A stretch of 33,058 bases of DNA, from positions 1-33,058 of the forward strand of contig JAAYGG010000090.1 in NCBI GenBank assembly GCA_012727895.1. Reading direction: 5' to 3'. Source of the stretch: Bacillota bacterium. Lineage in GTDB: Bacteria; Bacillota; UBA4882; UBA10575. A model generated the notes under the pieces. It had not been told where the DNA came from. It was given only the letters and a program-made list of their open reading frames with translations, and did no database searches. The position numbers were made by a program, and so were the translations under genes. Below are positions 6,248 through 20,935 of the stretch, one piece after another (position 1 is the stretch's first letter; each line of letters opens with the position of its first letter).

Positions 6248-7489
6248 TTATCCGAATGACGTGTGGGGATTGCTGAAAACCGACGCAAACAACTGGTTTG
6301 TCCATTGGACCGATTGGAAGAAAAACTGGGGGATTTTTTCCTCTCCCACATTTAGCCGGCTGGAATAGGTGTGCACCTCTTCCCAGTCGGCTTTTTCGTA
6401 GGCCAGGATCAAGCGGTAGACCATGCCGAAAAGGTTCATCCTCCCGGTCAGGGCATCCTTTATCTCGTTGGCGAGAGGAAGTTCAGCCAGGATTTCTTGC
6501 ATCGGCCGGTCCAGGAAAGCATCGATCAGCGAGAGGAGGCCCATGAGGAAAAATTCCGAACTGCGGTTCTGCAAACCGATTATGGAGGCGATCAACTCTC
6601 CAAACCTGGCCCTCACCACTGAGTTGACTATTAACTCATCGGGCTTGTCCTGGCCCATGTTGGAGAGGGCCAGGAGGGTAATCCATTTTTTGATCTCTTC
6701 GAGCCCGAGGATTACCAAGGCGTGTTTGATCGAGCTGATCCGGCAGCGAAAACCGAAGATTGCCGAGTTGACCAGGCGTAATAGCTTGTAGGAAAGGGAG
6801 AGGTCTGCAGTGACAATCCGGGTGATCTCTTCAAAATCCGGATTGGTACTGTGCAGTTCCTGTAAGATCCGGAGGTAGGTAAGGCGGTGGGAGGGGATGT
6901 CTTTCCTACTGATAATATGGGGACGGGAAAAAAAGAAACCCTGGAAATAGGTATAACCCAATTGCAGGGCTTCTTCAAAATCGGCCATGGTTTCCACCTT
7001 TTCGGCCAGGAGTTTTATCCTGCTGCCGGCAAACTTTTCGGCCAGGGCGGCCCGGTCTTCTTTTGCGGTGGCCAGGAAATCCACTTTGATAATATCAGCC
7101 ATCTCCGCCAGCGCGGCCCGTTCCCCGCTTAAGGCAAAGTCGTCCAGGACCAAAAGGTAACGGGAGTTCTTCAGCTTTTGACAGGCGTAGAGGATATCTT
7201 CATCCAGTTCGATATCTTCCAGGATTTCCACGCCAATCAGGTCCGGCGGGAAGATGGTGGGGATTTCGTTCTTAATCATATTGGCGGTGAAATTGATGAA
7301 GGCCGGTTTGCCGTTGGTCAGGGTATCAATCCCCAAGAGCATAAAACTGTCGGTGATGACCCGGGCGGTAGCCAGGTCGCCGTCCACACCGGGATAGCAG
7401 TTTTCCAGCCCATGGCGGAAAAGAAGCTCATAGGCGAAGACCTGCTGCCTGCTGTCGAAGACCGGCTGTCTGGCAACATACACTTCCAT
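6248..7489 (-). CDS. EAL-HDOD signalling protein (YuxH/CdgJ type)
   Basis: The 413-residue protein has an N-terminal EAL-like domain (1-~200; opening VARQPVFDSRQQVFAYELLFR) and a C-terminal HDOD domain (~205-400; YLRILQELHSTNPDFEEITRI...). In the EAL half several catalytic motifs are altered: DDFA replaces DDFG and AEKVE replaces EGVE, while the KVD and QGFFFSRP elements remain. Proteins of this type usually do not degrade c-di-GMP but act as scaffolds controlling motility or polysaccharide. No signal peptide or membrane segment is present. The ATG has AGGAGG upstream with a spacing of nine, and a good promoter lies at 7540-7568. It is transcribed alone, convergent with the CofE-like gene, and adds a second c-di-GMP-linked protein to this window. 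Confidence 0.85.
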   Translation of the reverse strand: MEVYVARQPVFDSRQQVFAYELLFRHGLENCYPGVDGDLATARVITDSFMLLGIDTLTNGKPAFINFTANMIKNEIPTIFPPDLIGVEILEDIELDEDILYACQKLKNSRYLLVLDDFALSGERAALAEMADIIKVDFLATAKEDRAALAEKFAGSRIKLLAEKVETMADFEEALQLGYTYFQGFFFSRPHIISRKDIPSHRLTYLRILQELHSTNPDFEEITRIVTADLSLSYKLLRLVNSAIFGFRCRISSIKHALVILGLEEIKKWITLLALSNMGQDKPDELIVNSVVRARFGELIASIIGLQNRSSEFFLMGLLSLIDAFLDRPMQEILAELPLANEIKDALTGRMNLFGMVYRLILAYEKADWEEVHTYSSRLNVGEEKIPQFFFQSVQWTNQLFASVFSNPHTSFG

Positions 7490-7539
7490 GTGGAAATGCC
7501 TCCTGTCCGGAAAGGGGTAAAACTCATCTATGCATTATA

Positions 7540-7568
7540 ATTGTACTAAATTTCCCATCATTAGTAAA
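7540..7568 (-). promoter_or_regulatory. Promoter of the EAL-HDOD gene
   Basis: On the minus strand TTTACT (7568-7563) and TACAAT (7545-7540) are 17 bases apart; an overlapping TATAAT lies at 7539-7534. It is about 40 bases upstream of the ribosome-binding site. Confidence 0.6.
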
Positions 7569-7587
7569 GATAAACAAGGAAAAAACT

Positions 7588-8343
7588 TTATATTTGCCGT
7601 TTTTCTTCCTGTAAAAGGTCACTTGTGATCTCCCTTTCCAAAGAGAGGAGGGTGTAATCGTCAAGACGGCGCTGGGAACGGGGGATTGGCACCGCATAAC
7701 GGCGCCGGATAACCGTGGGTTTGGCGGAGAGGAGGTAGATCTCATCAGCCAGCAGGAGGGCTTCTTTAACATCATGGGTAACATAGAGGACCGTCCGGGG
7801 CTCCGCCTCCCAAACCTGTAAAAACTGGCGGATCAATTCCAGTTTCAGCCCCAGGTCGAGGGATTTATAGGGTTCGTCCATGAGGAGGAGTTGGGAAGGG
7901 TAGGCCAGGGCGCGGGCCATGGCCACCCGTTGGCGCTGGCCGCCGCTTAACCGGCGGGGATAGGAGTTCCGGTAAGCTGTAAGTTCCACCTGGCGGAGAA
8001 CGGTGGCAACCCTTGCCTCCACTTCGGCGGGGGGAAAACGGTCTTTCAGGACAAAGGCGATGTTCCCGGCCACGGTCAACCAGTCGAGGAGGCGGGGCTC
8101 CTGGAAGAGAAAACTGACGGCCTTGCCGTCCAGGCCCAGGATCTCGCCGCTGTCCGGTAAAAGGGCGCCGGCGAGTATGGAGAGGAGGGTGGTTTTGCCG
8201 CACCCGGAAGGGCCCAGGATGGCGGCGATCCGGTTTTTCTCCACCGCCAGGGAGATCCCGTCCAACACCCGCAGGTTCCCGTAGGATTTAGTGATCTCTT
8301 TCAGCACAAACTCGTTTTGCGCCAGCTCTGTACCGTTCTTCAC
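7588..8343 (-). CDS. ABC transporter ATP-binding protein (SsuB/TauB-like)
   Basis: The 251-residue nucleotide-binding subunit contains Walker A (GPSGCGKTT), a Q-loop (FQEPRLLDW), the signature LSGGQRQR, Walker B (LLLMDEP) and the switch histidine (VTHD). The EPRLLDW form is typical of importers for nitrate, sulfonate, taurine or thiamine-precursor substrates. The frame is open far upstream, but that part is only the shadow of the permease gene; the real start is GTG at 8343, whose bases overlap the permease stop codon (GTGA), with a TTG at 8349 as a weaker alternative. It is the last gene of the operon regulator, binding protein, permease, ATPase, so all parts of one importer are present. Confidence 0.9.
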   Translation of the reverse strand: MKNGTELAQNEFVLKEITKSYGNLRVLDGISLAVEKNRIAAILGPSGCGKTTLLSILAGALLPDSGEILGLDGKAVSFLFQEPRLLDWLTVAGNIAFVLKDRFPPAEVEARVATVLRQVELTAYRNSYPRRLSGGQRQRVAMARALAYPSQLLLMDEPYKSLDLGLKLELIRQFLQVWEAEPRTVLYVTHDVKEALLLADEIYLLSAKPTVIRRRYAVPIPRSQRRLDDYTLLSLEREITSDLLQEEKRQI

Positions 8344-9113
8344 CGCCAAGCAATCCCTTTCTCCACCAGATTTTCGAGGACCCGGTCGAATAAGAGTCCA
8401 AGGAGGACCACCACCAGCGTCCAGGCAAAAACCTCCGGGGTCTGCAAGAAGATCCGGGCGGCGTCCATCCGGGCGCCGATCCCCAGGGCGGGCGCGGCCA
8501 TTACCTCCGCCATCACCGTCACCTTCCAGGTCAGGCCCAAACCGCTGGCCGCGGCCGTCGCGAGGTAAGGGATGATTGCCGGCAGGTAAAGCTCGCGAAA
8601 GATCCGCCAGGGCTTGACCTGGTAAATCCGGGCCATCTCCACCAGTTGGGGATCGATATTTTTCACCCCGTCCATCACGTTCTGCGTGACCAGGGGAAAG
8701 ACCATCAAAAAGGTGACAAAGACCGCCACCAGATCCGCCCGGAACCAGATTAAGGCCAGCAGGATCCAGGAGGCCGAGGGGGTGCTGCGCATCGTCACCA
8801 GTAAGGGGCGGAAGATAAGACTGAAGGGGCGGCTGAGCCCGGAGAGGAGTCCGAGGACCAGCCCGGCCAGGTAGGAGAGGCCGAAGCCGGTGAGGCCCCG
8901 CCATAAGGTGGCGCCCAGGCTGCGCCAGAAAACGGCGCCGGCCAGGAGGTTTTTTAGCGCCCGGAAGGTGGCGGCCGGGCCGGGCAAGATAATCTCCTTC
9001 CCGGTTACCGCCGCCGCAACGAACCAGAGCAATACCAGACCCAACAGGGAAAGAAGGGTCAGGAAGCTATTTTTGCTTTTGCAAATACTATTGCATTTGC
9101 TTTTACTTTGCAA
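8340..9113 (-). CDS. ABC transporter permease (SsuC/TauC-like)
   Basis: The 257-residue inner-membrane permease has six hydrophobic segments and the cytoplasmic EAA loop (ELYLPAIIPYLATAAASGLGLTWKV) that contacts the ATPase. The domain arrangement and length match BPD-type permeases of the nitrate/sulfonate/taurine family. The first 17 residues are polar and rich in Lys, Ser and Cys (QSKSKCNSICKSKN), encoded by short repeated ttttgc/tttgca words; this head is probably non-conserved. It overlaps the binding-protein gene by 11 bases and the ATPase gene by 4, showing tight translational coupling. Confidence 0.9.
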   Translation of the reverse strand: MQSKSKCNSICKSKNSFLTLLSLLGLVLLWFVAAAVTGKEIILPGPAATFRALKNLLAGAVFWRSLGATLWRGLTGFGLSYLAGLVLGLLSGLSRPFSLIFRPLLVTMRSTPSASWILLALIWFRADLVAVFVTFLMVFPLVTQNVMDGVKNIDPQLVEMARIYQVKPWRIFRELYLPAIIPYLATAAASGLGLTWKVTVMAEVMAAPALGIGARMDAARIFLQTPEVFAWTLVVVLLGLLFDRVLENLVEKGIAWR

Positions 9114-10110
9114 GATAAAATCCGGAATCGGGGAGTTTTCCCCCTGTTGTCCCGGGGTTAAATTCGTAAAGTTTCTCCAGGTAATGATCGATCTCCTCCT
9201 TGATCTCCCAGACCGGCACGAGATGCAGGTTGCAGCGGGGAATGGCTTCGCGCGCGGCTTCTGCGGAGATGAGCAGGTGCTCCTCGGCGTACCGGCCGGC
9301 CTCGTCCGGGTGGTTGTTGACCCAGGCGGAGGAAGCGGCGGCAGCAGCCAGAAAATCGTCCACCAGGTCCGGGTTTTTCTCCACCAGTTCCGCCCGGACC
9401 ACCAGGCAGGTCTGGGGATATGAGTACTCTTTACCCTCCAGGCGTTTCCATGCCTCCTGGTAGTCCAGGACTACGGTCATCTCCGGGTTTTTCCGGATCA
9501 CCTCGGTGACCCAGGGTTCAGGCAAGGTCGCCAGGGCGGCTTTCCCGGCGATGACCAACTGGGCCAGTTCAACCGGGGCCGCGTAGTACCGGAGTTCAAG
9601 GTCTTCATCGGGGTTTAGCCCCTCGGCTGTTAAGAAGTAGCGCAGGAGGATATCGGGTGTGGTTCCCCGGCCAGTAACCGCCAGTTCGCGGCCTTTCAGA
9701 TCCCGCCAGCTTTGTACTGAGGGATCCCGCCCGACAACGTACATCACTCCCCAGTTGGTAACGGCCGCCAACCGGATCGCGACTCCCCGGTTGTAGAGGA
9801 CGGCCGCAAGGTTGGTGGGGAGCGCGGCAATATCCGCTTCCCCCGAGACCAACCGGGCTGTTAATTGTTCCGGTTTGGTGGCGACGGAGTAATTGAGTTT
9901 CACCCCGGACAACTCCGGCTCTTCCGCGATCATTTGCAGGAGGGAGAGGCCGGTCGGGCCGGAGAGGACCATCACATTAAGCTCCGCGGGCTTTTCTTCC
10001 CGGCCGTCCAGGACGGCGGGGAGGAAGAAGAGAACCAGCAGGGCGAGGATGGAAAGGGCTGTTTTGGAAAAGGCTGTTTTCTTGAAGATTCTCTTGAACA
10101 TCCTGATCAT
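9103..10110 (-). CDS. ABC transporter substrate-binding protein, NMT1/THI5-like
   Basis: The 335-residue binding protein has a basic N-terminus and one hydrophobic export segment (TALSILALLVLFFLPAVLDG), then a periplasmic-binding fold: LNVMVLSGPTGLSLLQMI, ...GEADIAALPTNLAAVLYNRG, ...GRELAVTGRGTTPDILLRYFL, ...ATLPEPWVTEVIRKNP. This pattern belongs to the NMT1/SsuA/TauA group, whose ligands include sulfonates, nitrate and pyrimidine precursors of thiamine. The ligand cannot be read from the sequence. No cysteine follows the export segment, so it is not a lipoprotein; it is either anchored by the uncleaved helix or free in a periplasm. The start ATG is close to a strong GAGGAGG; ATG 10101 is an alternative. 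It follows the TM1266-type gene by 19 bases. Confidence 0.85.
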   Translation of the reverse strand: MIRMFKRIFKKTAFSKTALSILALLVLFFLPAVLDGREEKPAELNVMVLSGPTGLSLLQMIAEEPELSGVKLNYSVATKPEQLTARLVSGEADIAALPTNLAAVLYNRGVAIRLAAVTNWGVMYVVGRDPSVQSWRDLKGRELAVTGRGTTPDILLRYFLTAEGLNPDEDLELRYYAAPVELAQLVIAGKAALATLPEPWVTEVIRKNPEMTVVLDYQEAWKRLEGKEYSYPQTCLVVRAELVEKNPDLVDDFLAAAAASSAWVNNHPDEAGRYAEEHLLISAEAAREAIPRCNLHLVPVWEIKEEIDHYLEKLYEFNPGTTGGKLPDSGFYLAK

Positions 10111-10129: not shown

Positions 10130-10381
10130 TCAGGCCTTGGACAGGGCTGCCCGGACTTTTACTCCAGGGAGGGAGCCCAGCAGGCCGGTGAGGGTGTTGA
10201 TTTGATCGTTGGTCCCGTCCACCAGGATGGCCAGAACCGCCACGTTCCGCGTGCGGTAGGGAATTCCCAGCCTGCCAATGACAATATCACTGGCCTGGCT
10301 GATATAATTGTTCAGTTTTTCCTGGACATTTTGTGGGTCTTCAATGACGACACCGATGACGCCCACCCGTTTCTCTTCCAT
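10130..10381 (-). CDS. TM1266-family iron-only hydrogenase system putative regulator
   Basis: The 83-residue protein (EEKRVGVIGVVIEDPQNVQ... LNNYISQASDIVIGRLGIPYR... VAVLAILVDGTNDQINTLTGLLGSLPGVKVRAALS) matches the TM1266 family: a single ACT/NikR-C-like ferredoxin-fold domain without a DNA-binding part. These genes are usually found with [FeFe]-hydrogenase maturation genes and are thought to sense a small molecule; the function is not proven. Here it is first in an operon with an NMT1-type ABC importer, which suggests that the importer serves the same pathway. GGAGG lies 8 bases before the ATG. The upstream region carries a direct repeat and a folded leader described separately. Confidence 0.85.
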   Translation of the reverse strand: MEEKRVGVIGVVIEDPQNVQEKLNNYISQASDIVIGRLGIPYRTRNVAVLAILVDGTNDQINTLTGLLGSLPGVKVRAALSKA

Positions 10382-10582: not shown

Positions 10583-10655
10583 GCAGCCTGCCGGTAAAAG
10601 CAATGAAAATTTTCGTGCGGGTTATACGGTGAAAAAAAGTTGCCGGTTCTAATTA

Positions 10656-10684
10656 TTGACATATGCCCAAAAGTGCTTTAAACT
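10656..10684 (+). promoter_or_regulatory. Promoter of the Mrp-type ATPase gene
   Basis: TTGACA (10656-10661) and TAAACT (10679-10684) are separated by 17 bases. The sequence just after the -35 box, CATATGCCCAAAA, matches 11 of 13 bases of the repeated sequence at the DUF5320 promoter and sits at the same position, so the two promoters are probably co-regulated. Confidence 0.75.
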
Positions 10685-10716: not shown

Positions 10717-11499
10717 TTGTCAGCAGAAAAAAGAGGCATTGAAAAATTGGCGCCTAATAAACTTAATAAAATAGGCCATGTAATTGCGGTAATGAGCGGT
10801 AAGGGCGGGGTCGGCAAATCTTCCGTGACTTCACTGGTTGCGGTGGAACTGGCCCGCCAGGGATATAAGACAGGGATCCTTGATGCGGATATCACCGGTT
10901 CCAGTATTCCCAAGATGTTTGGCCTACGCACGAAACCTGAAACCACCGAATTCGGCCTCCTGCCGGTCGAGAGCCGGATGGGGATCAAGGTGATTTCCAT
11001 CAATTTGTTGTTGGAGAATGAAGAAGACCCGGTAATCTGGAGAGGGCCGCTTTTGACCGGAACAGTCAAGCAATTCTGGACGGACGTGGTTTGGGATGTC
11101 CTGGATTACCTGGTGGTGGATTTGCCGCCGGGAACAGGTGATGTTCCGCTTACGGTAATGCAGAGCCTCCCGGTAGACGGTTTGATTGTTGTTACGTCCC
11201 CGCAGGAACTGGCGGTGATGATCGTGAAGAAGGCCGTTAAAATGGCGGAGATTCTAAAAGTTCCCCTTTTAGGGCTGGTAGAAAATATGAGTTATGTGCA
11301 GTGCCCAAACTGCAAAACCACTATTGACCTGTTCGGCCCGGGACGGGGAGAAAAAGAGGCCAGAGAGGCGGGGTTGGCTTTTTTGGGCCGCCTGCCGGTG
11401 GACCCGGAATTCGCCACCCTGTGTGACCGGGGGGAGATCGAAAAATATCCGGGGTTTTCGACTCTGGACCTCTCTGCGGTATTGGAAAAGCTCGGCTAA
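10717..11499 (+). CDS. Mrp/NBP35-family P-loop ATPase, Fe-S carrier type
   Basis: The 260-residue cytoplasmic protein has the deviant Walker A MSGKGGVGKSS (residues 26-36), DADITGSSIPKMFG, VDLPPGTGD, and the C-terminal CPNC pair (Cys196, Cys199) used by Mrp/ApbC proteins to hold a bridging Fe-S cluster in the dimer. Family members transfer Fe-S clusters to target proteins. The start is TTG at 10717, with GAGGGG about 8 bases upstream. It is followed after 64 bases by an unusual membrane protein and then by a DUF5320 protein whose promoter carries the same operator sequence. In other anaerobes such ATPases also neighbour NifX/NifB-domain and DUF134 proteins; a DUF134 gene is present here 9 kb away. 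Confidence 0.9.
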   Translation: MSAEKRGIEKLAPNKLNKIGHVIAVMSGKGGVGKSSVTSLVAVELARQGYKTGILDADITGSSIPKMFGLRTKPETTEFGLLPVESRMGIKVISINLLLENEEDPVIWRGPLLTGTVKQFWTDVVWDVLDYLVVDLPPGTGDVPLTVMQSLPVDGLIVVTSPQELAVMIVKKAVKMAEILKVPLLGLVENMSYVQCPNCKTTIDLFGPGRGEKEAREAGLAFLGRLPVDPEFATLCDRGEIEKYPGFSTLDLSAVLEKLG

Positions 11500-11563: not shown

Positions 11564-12232
11564 ATGAAAAAGCTCGCACATATACGGGAAGAACTCCGTG
11601 CCCACCTGCCGTACACCATCTTCAGTTCCGCTTTTGGCCTGATTATGGTGGGTATTTTAAGTTTTGTCGCTTTTTTCTTTGATGAAGCACGGTTTCCGGA
11701 GGCATCCGCCGGGTTGTTCCATATCTTCCACCCGGTGCACGTCCTTTTGAGCGCCACGGCCACCACGGCCATGTTCTGGCGGCATGAGAAAAAACTCCTC
11801 AAAGCGGTCCTTGTCGGCCTTTTCGGCTCCGTGGTCATCTGCGGGATCAGCGATGTCTTTATCCCCTTTATCAGCGGCCGCATATTGGGGGTGGCCATGG
11901 ATCTCCATATTTGCCTCTTTGAACACCCGGGGATCGTTCTTCCCTTTGCGGCTGCCGGTGTTTTTGTCGGGATTACCGCCCCGGCGGTGATCAGGGAGAC
12001 CACGGCTTTCTCCCACGCCATGCACGTCTTTATCAGCAGCATGGCTTCCATCCTCTACCTGGTTTCCTATGGTTTGACCAACTGGATGGAGCATTTCGGC
12101 ATGGTCTTTTTCTTTAACATCCTGGCGGTGTTGCTCCCTTGCTGCATCAGCGATATCGTCTTTCCCCTGCTTTTCTGTGGGACCATGGATCATGAAGCCC
12201 ATTGCCCGCCTGGTCCGGGAGTCTCCGGTTAA
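11564..12232 (+). CDS. Six-helix membrane protein with internal duplication, function unknown
   Basis: I do not recognise this 222-residue protein. It has six hydrophobic helices (about 18-40, 50-70, 78-103, 113-137, 145-166, 173-200). Helices 2-3 resemble helices 5-6: FHPVHVLLSATATT with SHAMHVFISSMASI, and CGISDVFIPFISG with CCISDIVFPLLFCG. Each half therefore carries an HxxH motif in one helix and an ISDxxxP motif in the next, plus cysteines. These His, Asp and Cys residues inside the membrane suggest metal or haem binding or metal/proton transport, but that is inference. The tail (HEAHCPPGPG) is also a possible metal site. GAGAGGGG precedes the ATG. It lies in the Mrp - membrane protein - DUF5320 cluster. 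Confidence 0.8.
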   Translation: MKKLAHIREELRAHLPYTIFSSAFGLIMVGILSFVAFFFDEARFPEASAGLFHIFHPVHVLLSATATTAMFWRHEKKLLKAVLVGLFGSVVICGISDVFIPFISGRILGVAMDLHICLFEHPGIVLPFAAAGVFVGITAPAVIRETTAFSHAMHVFISSMASILYLVSYGLTNWMEHFGMVFFFNILAVLLPCCISDIVFPLLFCGTMDHEAHCPPGPGVSG

Positions 12233-12240
12233 AAAAGTTA

Positions 12241-12269
12241 TTGACATATGCTCATAAAGCGGGTATAAT
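12241..12269 (+). promoter_or_regulatory. Consensus sigma-A promoter of the DUF5320 gene
   Basis: TTGACA (12241-12246), 17-base spacer, TATAAT (12264-12269): a perfect consensus. Transcription should start near 12276. Confidence 0.9.
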
Positions 12270-12290
12270 ATAATCAGCATATGTTCATAA
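12245..12290 (+). promoter_or_regulatory. Paired operator-like sequences around the DUF5320 promoter
   Basis: CATATGCTCATAA (12245-12257) and CATATGTTCATAA (12278-12290) differ at one base and are 33 bases apart, about three helical turns. Each contains the palindrome TATG-NN-CATA. One overlaps the -35 box, the other lies at the expected transcript start, so a bound protein would block the promoter. A related sequence overlaps the -35 box of the Mrp-type gene. Confidence 0.7.
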
Positions 12291-12313
12291 CTAAGGAAAA
12301 GGGGGTAAGTGTA

Positions 12314-12685
12314 ATGCCGTTTGGAGATGGTACCGGACCGATGGGCTATGGCCCCATGACCGGCCGGGCTGCCGGGTACTGCGCCGGTTACCCGGTTCCG
12401 GGGTATATGAACCAGTGGGGAGGATACCGTGGTTTTGGCCGGGGACGTGCCCTTGGTTGGGGCCGCGGCCGTGGTTGGCGCCACATGTACTACGCCACCG
12501 GTCTTCCCGGTTGGGCCCGCGGTGGAGTATGGCCGGCAGTGCCGCCGGCGGTGGCGCCCGGTTTCGATCCTTCCCAGGAGGCCGAATTCCTTAAGCAACA
12601 TGCTTCTTTTTTGGAACAGGAGTTGACAGAGGTCAAGAAGAGGCTGGCGCAGTTGGAGGCGGAAAGTAAAGAAGAGGGAGAATAA
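12314..12685 (+). CDS. DUF5320 family protein
   Basis: The 123-residue protein opens MPFGDGTGPMGYGPMTGRAAGYCAG, the hallmark of DUF5320, and continues with a Gly/Arg/Tyr/Trp-rich segment (GFGRGRALGWGRGRGWRH) and a C-terminal coiled coil (FLKQHASFLEQELTEVKKRLAQLEAE). The role is unknown; genes of this family accompany Mrp-type ATPases, NifX/NifB-like dinitrogenase cofactor proteins and DUF134 regulators in anaerobes. An in-frame ATG at 12281 lies only about five bases after the predicted transcript start, so I use ATG 12314, which has AAAGGGGGT upstream. It has its own perfect promoter and ends before a strong terminator. Confidence 0.85.
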   Translation: MPFGDGTGPMGYGPMTGRAAGYCAGYPVPGYMNQWGGYRGFGRGRALGWGRGRGWRHMYYATGLPGWARGGVWPAVPPAVAPGFDPSQEAEFLKQHASFLEQELTEVKKRLAQLEAESKEEGE

Positions 12686-20438: not shown

Positions 20439-20464
20439 CAAAGAAGAGAGAAGGGGTGAGTGCA

Positions 20465-20935
20465 GTGGCCAGGCCGCCAAAAGAGCGCCGTGTAGAGTAC
20501 CTGCCGGTGGTGACAGCCTTTAAACCCGCGGGTCTCCCCAAGGCCGCCCTGGAAGAAGTAGTACTTACCGTAGAAGAGTTGGAAGCTGTGCGCCTTAAGG
20601 ACCTGGAAGGGCTGGAGCAAGAAGAATGCGCCGCCAGGATGGAAATTTCCCGCCCAACCTTCCAGCGGATTTTAGGGACAGCCCGTGCCAAGATCGCGGA
20701 TGCGCTTATTAACGGCAAAGGGCTGCGGATTGAGGGCGGTAATTACCAGTTGGCCGCCGGCAGGTTCCAGTGCCGGTCCTGCCTCTCCTATTTTGATCTT
20801 TCGTTCCCGCCCGGGCGTCCGGTGGCCAAACTAGTCTGCCCCCGGTGCGAGTACCCGCACCCCCGCCGGGTGGAGGACGGGCCCGGCCATGGCCGCCGTT
20901 TCCGGGGCCGCCACGGCCGGAGAGGTCCCGGATAA
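20465..20935 (+). CDS. DUF134 putative DNA-binding protein fused to a zinc ribbon
   Basis: The 156-residue protein begins ARPPKERRVEYLPVVTAFKPAGLP, the standard DUF134 opening, followed by a sigma-70-region-4-like helix-turn-helix (LTVEELEAVRLKDLEGLEQEECAARMEISRPTFQRILGTARAKIADALING). Residues ~100-135 carry a CxxC ... CxxC pair (CRSC, CPRC), a probable zinc ribbon, and the tail is Arg/Gly/His-rich. The usual family member is shorter and lacks one or both additions. GTG 20465 is chosen because GGGG lies eight bases upstream and the family begins at ARP; GTG 20456 is the alternative. It is a candidate regulator of the Mrp / DUF5320 genes, since the families co-occur, but no shared operator is seen at its own promoter. 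Confidence 0.85.
   Translation: MARPPKERRVEYLPVVTAFKPAGLPKAALEEVVLTVEELEAVRLKDLEGLEQEECAARMEISRPTFQRILGTARAKIADALINGKGLRIEGGNYQLAAGRFQCRSCLSYFDLSFPPGRPVAKLVCPRCEYPHPRRVEDGPGHGRRFRGRHGRRGPG

Follow-up and report, generated by a model that had tools for sequence, protein, structure and literature searches.

The window, i.e. the whole 33,058-nucleotide stretch of DNA analysed here, carries a gene whose predicted product is a small membrane protein of six helices with related strings of conserved residues in its two halves. The locus raises the question of what such a protein does and to which family it belongs. We assign it, with a probability of roughly 0.6, to a hitherto undescribed transporter family for divalent transition metals (Ni2+ or Fe2+), with uptake as the most likely direction; transport is what we infer from the invariance of His, Asp and Cys residues, the internal duplication, the inverted halves and the recurrent adjacency of metalloregulator genes. 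Anaerobes with nickel- and iron-dependent enzymes are limited by metal supply. A compact, widespread family that has no profile in the main protein libraries and is linked to NikR, Fur and Feo would represent a route of metal transport that has so far escaped notice, and its simple duplicated scaffold would help to study how a pathway is built from inverted repeats and metal sites.

Internal duplication in a family without a name

The purine-rich gagaggggaatgacct lies just 5' of the start codon. The strings on which the initial annotation had based a duplicated three-helix unit, HPVH (residues 56-59), CGISDVFIPF (93-102), HAMH (151-154) and CCISDIVFPL (193-202), are all present in the protein; helices 2 and 5 contain HPVHVLLSATATTA and HAMHVFISSMAS, respectively. 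Using profiles from 96 homologues, hhalign matched residues 4-107 to residues 108-208 with a probability of 92-97% and P values of 7e-8 to 5e-10, the two values coming from slightly different settings. By comparison, reversal of the second half yielded a P of 0.12, and the best among 60 column shuffles reached 1e-3. The half-to-half offsets are regular, at +95 for HxxH...S and +100 for SDxxxP. Collectively, these profile alignments demonstrate, well beyond chance, two homologous three-helix halves and bear out the proposed duplication. The AlphaFold2 model, computed from an alignment of 15 homologues, consists of six long helices with no seventh (mean pLDDT 86.6, pTM 0.83).

Coordinates of the gene, its half-repeats and neighbouring features in the window
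Feature	Position	Strand	Basis or remark
Candidate metal-transporter gene	11564-12232	+	222 aa, ATG start, open reading frame call
First half-repeat, residues 4-107 (H14, HPVH 56-59, CGISD-P 93-101)	11573-11884	+	hhalign vs second half; conservation
Second half-repeat, residues 108-208 (H115, HAMH 151-154, PCCISD-P 192-201)	11885-12187	+	hhalign vs first half; conservation
Mrp/NUBPL-type Fe-S carrier ATPase	10717-11499	+	65-bp gap; Pfam PF10609 E 8e-92
DUF5320 gene	12281-12685	+	49-bp gap; PF17253 E 5.5e-30
Sigma-70-like promoter of the DUF5320 gene	12241-12269		perfect
TM1266-like putative regulator	10130-10381	-	divergent from Mrp gene; PF21699 E 1.3e-25; TIGR03959 over its cut-off
20-bp pseudo-palindrome	10653-10672, 12238-12257, 12271-12290		candidate operator
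EAL-HDOD gene and ABC transporter	6248-10110	-	beside TM1266-like regulator
DUF134 gene	20456-20935	+	8 kb off

No described family with this pattern had been known to the initial annotation, and our searches agree. At lax E-values, Pfam and NCBIfam returned only chance-level matches for the window protein and its homologues, about 15 members in all (the 14 homologues scanned here and against the PDB share 48-86% identity with the window protein). A PDB sequence search found no match with the single sequence and one irrelevant match (E 0.66) with a profile. Foldseek of the model against viral models, tblastn against a plasmid collection and a literature search with family-level words were likewise negative. 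In profile searches of sampled genomes, which give approximate rates, members were present in 93 of 285 Omnitrophota, 30 of 294 Planctomycetota (the phylum of the Scalindua locus described below), 24 of 247 genomes of the archaeal phylum to which the Methanocellales locus belongs and 3 of 398 genomes of the window's own phylum. As judged from these searches, the family is widespread and unnamed in anaerobic bacteria and archaea. Only 2 of 101 relatives of the window have a member, a sparse presence that would be compatible with gene transfer into the lineage. At the end of a second contig of the sister genome, beside Mrp, the coding sequence for the first 58 residues recurs, through either tandem duplication or an overlap between contigs in the assembly.

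Conserved residues and a proposed two-site model

Conservation was assessed across 96 diverse sequences, whose identity has a median of 39% and a minimum of 26%. Thirteen positions are invariant in all 96 sequences (L11, H59, D97, P101, H115, G132, H151, H154, V189, P192, C193, D197 and P201) and a further ten are kept in at least 97% (E10, H14, P16, F52, H56, T67, G85, S158, C194 and S196; H14, H56 and C194 at 98%). If E10 is left aside, the near-invariant residues that are charged, His or Cys coincide with H14, H115 and the His/Asp/Cys set of the repeats, and conservation in the family is highest at the His/Asp set. Conserved positions fall on one face of helices 2 and 5; a similar one-sidedness, sought in helices 3 and 6, does not hold there. 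Of the paired His, Asp and Cys residues emphasised initially, His and Asp are kept across the homologues, whereas the pairing of Cys is incomplete, since C193-C194 of the second half occurs in essentially all members and C93 of the first half only in the clade containing the window, being mostly Ala in the other.

The tree of the 96 sequences has two deep clades (support 100/98). In the clade of the window, H53, C93 and C117 are additionally present; these positions are mostly Tyr, Ala and Gly in the other clade, where Y165 is often replaced by His. Covariation of H53, C93 and C117 was considered as a sign of proximity and rejected because the change tracks a single deep split and so counts as about one event.

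The mean number of Lys plus Arg residues is 2.6 at the N-terminus, 0.8, 3.2, 0.9, 1.6 and 0.25 in loops 1-5, and 1.1 at the C-terminus. These counts fit an N-in/C-in topology in which the two halves would be inverted, so that the two related sites would be placed towards opposite faces of the membrane. We propose two pseudosymmetric 3His-1Asp metal sites, each combining an HxxH and an Asp with a His from the other half. The outer site would be formed by H56 and H59 of helix 2 and D97 near the end of helix 3, with H115 contributed by the second half; for the inner site, helix 5 would supply its HxxH and helix 6 D197 and C193/C194, with H14 contributed by the first half. Arranged in series, the sites could serve as entry and exit for an ion that passes by alternating access or through a gated channel.

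Four His residues in two helices, in symmetric sites near both faces, would also suit a membrane haem protein with a b-type, His-ligated haem on each side, engaged in electron transfer or haem handling, and in three members the next gene downstream encodes porphobilinogen deaminase. Haem, which had initially been named beside metal, is nevertheless the less likely ligand, and we regard a haem protein as improbable: the invariant Asp and the CC motifs are atypical of b-haem sites, Pfam gave no match to a haem protein family, and only a few Omnitrophota have haem genes next to the family gene, as against neighbours of the NikR, Fur, DtxR and FeoB type.

Gene neighbourhoods and the likely metal

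Metal genes next to the family were sought in 107 loci, covering about 7 kb on each side of a member with simple gene calls. The gene directly upstream (91 scanned with Pfam) matched NikR_C in 12 cases, FeoB_C in five and FUR in three; directly downstream (87 scanned), FUR was matched in five. NikR is directly adjacent in 13 of the 107 loci, and all 13 NikR genes among the 1190 neighbour genes are immediately adjacent; 10 of the 12 Fur genes lie within two positions of a family member. By chance, no more than about one adjacency would be expected over the 107 loci, an estimate that assumes one or two such regulators per 1500-2000 genes and is to be read with the non-independence of related genomes in mind. 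On the tree, NikR and Fur adjacency each require at least three changes, and the NikR-adjacent members fall in both deep clades. Single checks confirmed a NikR downstream of one Omnitrophota member as well as the CsoR-type, CDF, ArsP_1 and DtxR-type neighbours. In Methanocellales, the gene order is DtxR, FeoA, FeoB (split) and, last, the family gene; ZnuABC-like genes, read from sequence, occur near Scalindua members, and an ArsP_1 permease adjoins a single member. About two thirds of the loci have no recognised metal gene next door. Taken with the conserved His and Asp residues, the recurrence of the gene beside NikR, Fur, DtxR/FeoAB, CsoR-type, CDF and Znu-like genes supports the metal site or transporter suspected at the outset.

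Since the regulators differ by lineage, the physiological metal probably differs too: probably nickel where NikR adjoins, and iron where FeoAB/DtxR or Mrp-type Fe-S genes adjoin. The NikR neighbours keep the His/His/His/Cys pattern of the nickel ligands of E. coli NikR, making nickel likely at those loci. A CbiM/NikM-type system is likewise encoded in most of the archaeal genomes with NikR linkage, so that the family would be an additional route there. For the protein of the window, nickel was lowered: its genome has no match over cut-off to CbiM, [NiFe]-hydrogenase or NikR and three matches to FeoB, which together with the Mrp neighbour makes iron the likelier metal.

An AT-rich conserved element of about 26 bp lies between nikR and the family gene in 11 of 11 aligned regions and could represent an operator or just part of a promoter. 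An inverted repeat common to these intergenic regions scores above shuffles but is only suggestive, because the same data had served to select it and a TATA-like box lies within its overlap. At 10 archaeal loci, a single-helix protein of 53-78 aa with the core KIVTIIVLVVIALFxLLPILSG is encoded directly downstream; it has no Pfam match and is a possible small subunit. At three archaeal loci, the family gene is preceded, at a distance of 9-27 bp, by a gene for a 410-aa protein that has four CBS domains.

As to direction, two Omnitrophota members have a CsoR-type repressor next to them, and 4 bp upstream of another lies a CDF efflux gene; such neighbours would suit export too. In our judgement, a protein of the same architecture that serves metal efflux or resistance and is induced by metal excess is unlikely. 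The FeoAB/DtxR context is typical of uptake. The same is true of the NikR context (PMC2667541), and both contexts are more frequent than those pointing to export; uptake is therefore favoured.

In the window itself (see the table), the Mrp/NUBPL gene is the probable co-transcribed partner of the family gene, and both its family and DUF5320 recur near other members. The putative TM1266-like regulator has weak similarity to the metal-binding domain of NikR, with NikR_C below cut-off. The pseudo-palindrome of the form TTATNNNCATATGNNNATAA, a candidate for a dedicated operator, overlaps the -35 box as one imperfect copy before the Mrp gene and as two copies before the DUF5320 gene; exact copies of CATATGYTCATAA are confined, genome-wide, to the two DUF5320-gene sites, and the sister species has retained the element. 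DUF134 also adjoins members in Methanocellales. The ABC transporter on the other side of the regulator, of the aliphatic-sulfonate/nitrate type, consists of substrate-binding protein, permease and ATPase.

Here and at several other loci, the family gene lies among Mrp/NUBPL, MinD-ferredoxin, NifX-like, DUF134 and DUF5320 genes, as might a membrane component of Mrp/MinD-ferredoxin Fe-S or metallocluster assembly that hands over or senses metal and is not a transporter. We give this reading little weight, because many NikR- and Fur-linked loci are devoid of these genes and a pair of inverted halves is an architecture typically seen in transporters and channels.

Comparison with known transporters and channels

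Small metal exporters with 3+3 helices, such as MntP and UPF0016, are built from two copies of a three-helix unit, both of which carry conserved acidic residues. The present protein likewise has six helices from a duplicated three-helix unit, but it has no Pfam match to them and its conserved set is mainly His, with Asp and Cys. With FeoB, the family gene shares the operon of DtxR, FeoA and FeoB in Methanocellales; its sequence, however, is unrelated and lacks a G domain, and neither FeoB_C nor Gate domains were found by Pfam in the window protein or other members.

The nickel/cobalt transporters (NikABCDE, Cbi/NikMNQO, NiCoT, UreH, HupE/UreJ) have in common with a subset of the family the adjacency of nikR, and His and Asp residues in membrane helices. 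They differ from it in motif and layout, the family having HxxH and SDxxxP in each three-helix half. Pfam gave no match to any of these transporters, and neither Pfam nor NCBIfam profiles of CbiM/NikM, NiCoT/NicO and HupE/UreJ matched any of 15 members. In archaea, only three nickel/cobalt transporter families were found, Nik/CbiMNQO, NikABCDE and NiCoT (PMC2667541), none of which matches the present family. The assignment of nickel transporters in that study likewise drew on adjacency of nikR (PMC2667541), and on this circumstantial basis the NikR-linked members may transport nickel.

The best Foldseek matches of the model are TRIC cation channels, at weak similarity (5wtr_A, probability 0.92 but E 0.37, TMq 0.38; 5h35_C, TMq 0.44, rmsd 4.5; TM range 0.38-0.49). 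TRIC channels consist of two inverted triple-helix bundles that form the cation path, with a glycine-rich GGG motif in helices 2 and 5 (PMC5477506). As judged from the duplication and the charge counts, the present protein would also have two inverted three-helix halves. It differs, however, in having no sequence-profile match to TRIC, no GGG motif in helices 2 and 5 and no seventh helix, and the TRIC pore is mostly hydrophobic, in contrast to the His, Asp and Cys residues conserved here. Because the match is weak and the glycine motifs and the seventh helix are absent, we do not file the family under TRIC. It may still work like a TRIC-type pore with metal-selective residues. Tentatively, and with somewhat less than even confidence, we suggest a new superfamily of metal transporters or gated metal channels, built from TRIC-like inverted triple-helix bundles with two domain-swapped 3His-1Asp sites, one per membrane face, that would carry nickel in some archaea and iron in other anaerobes.
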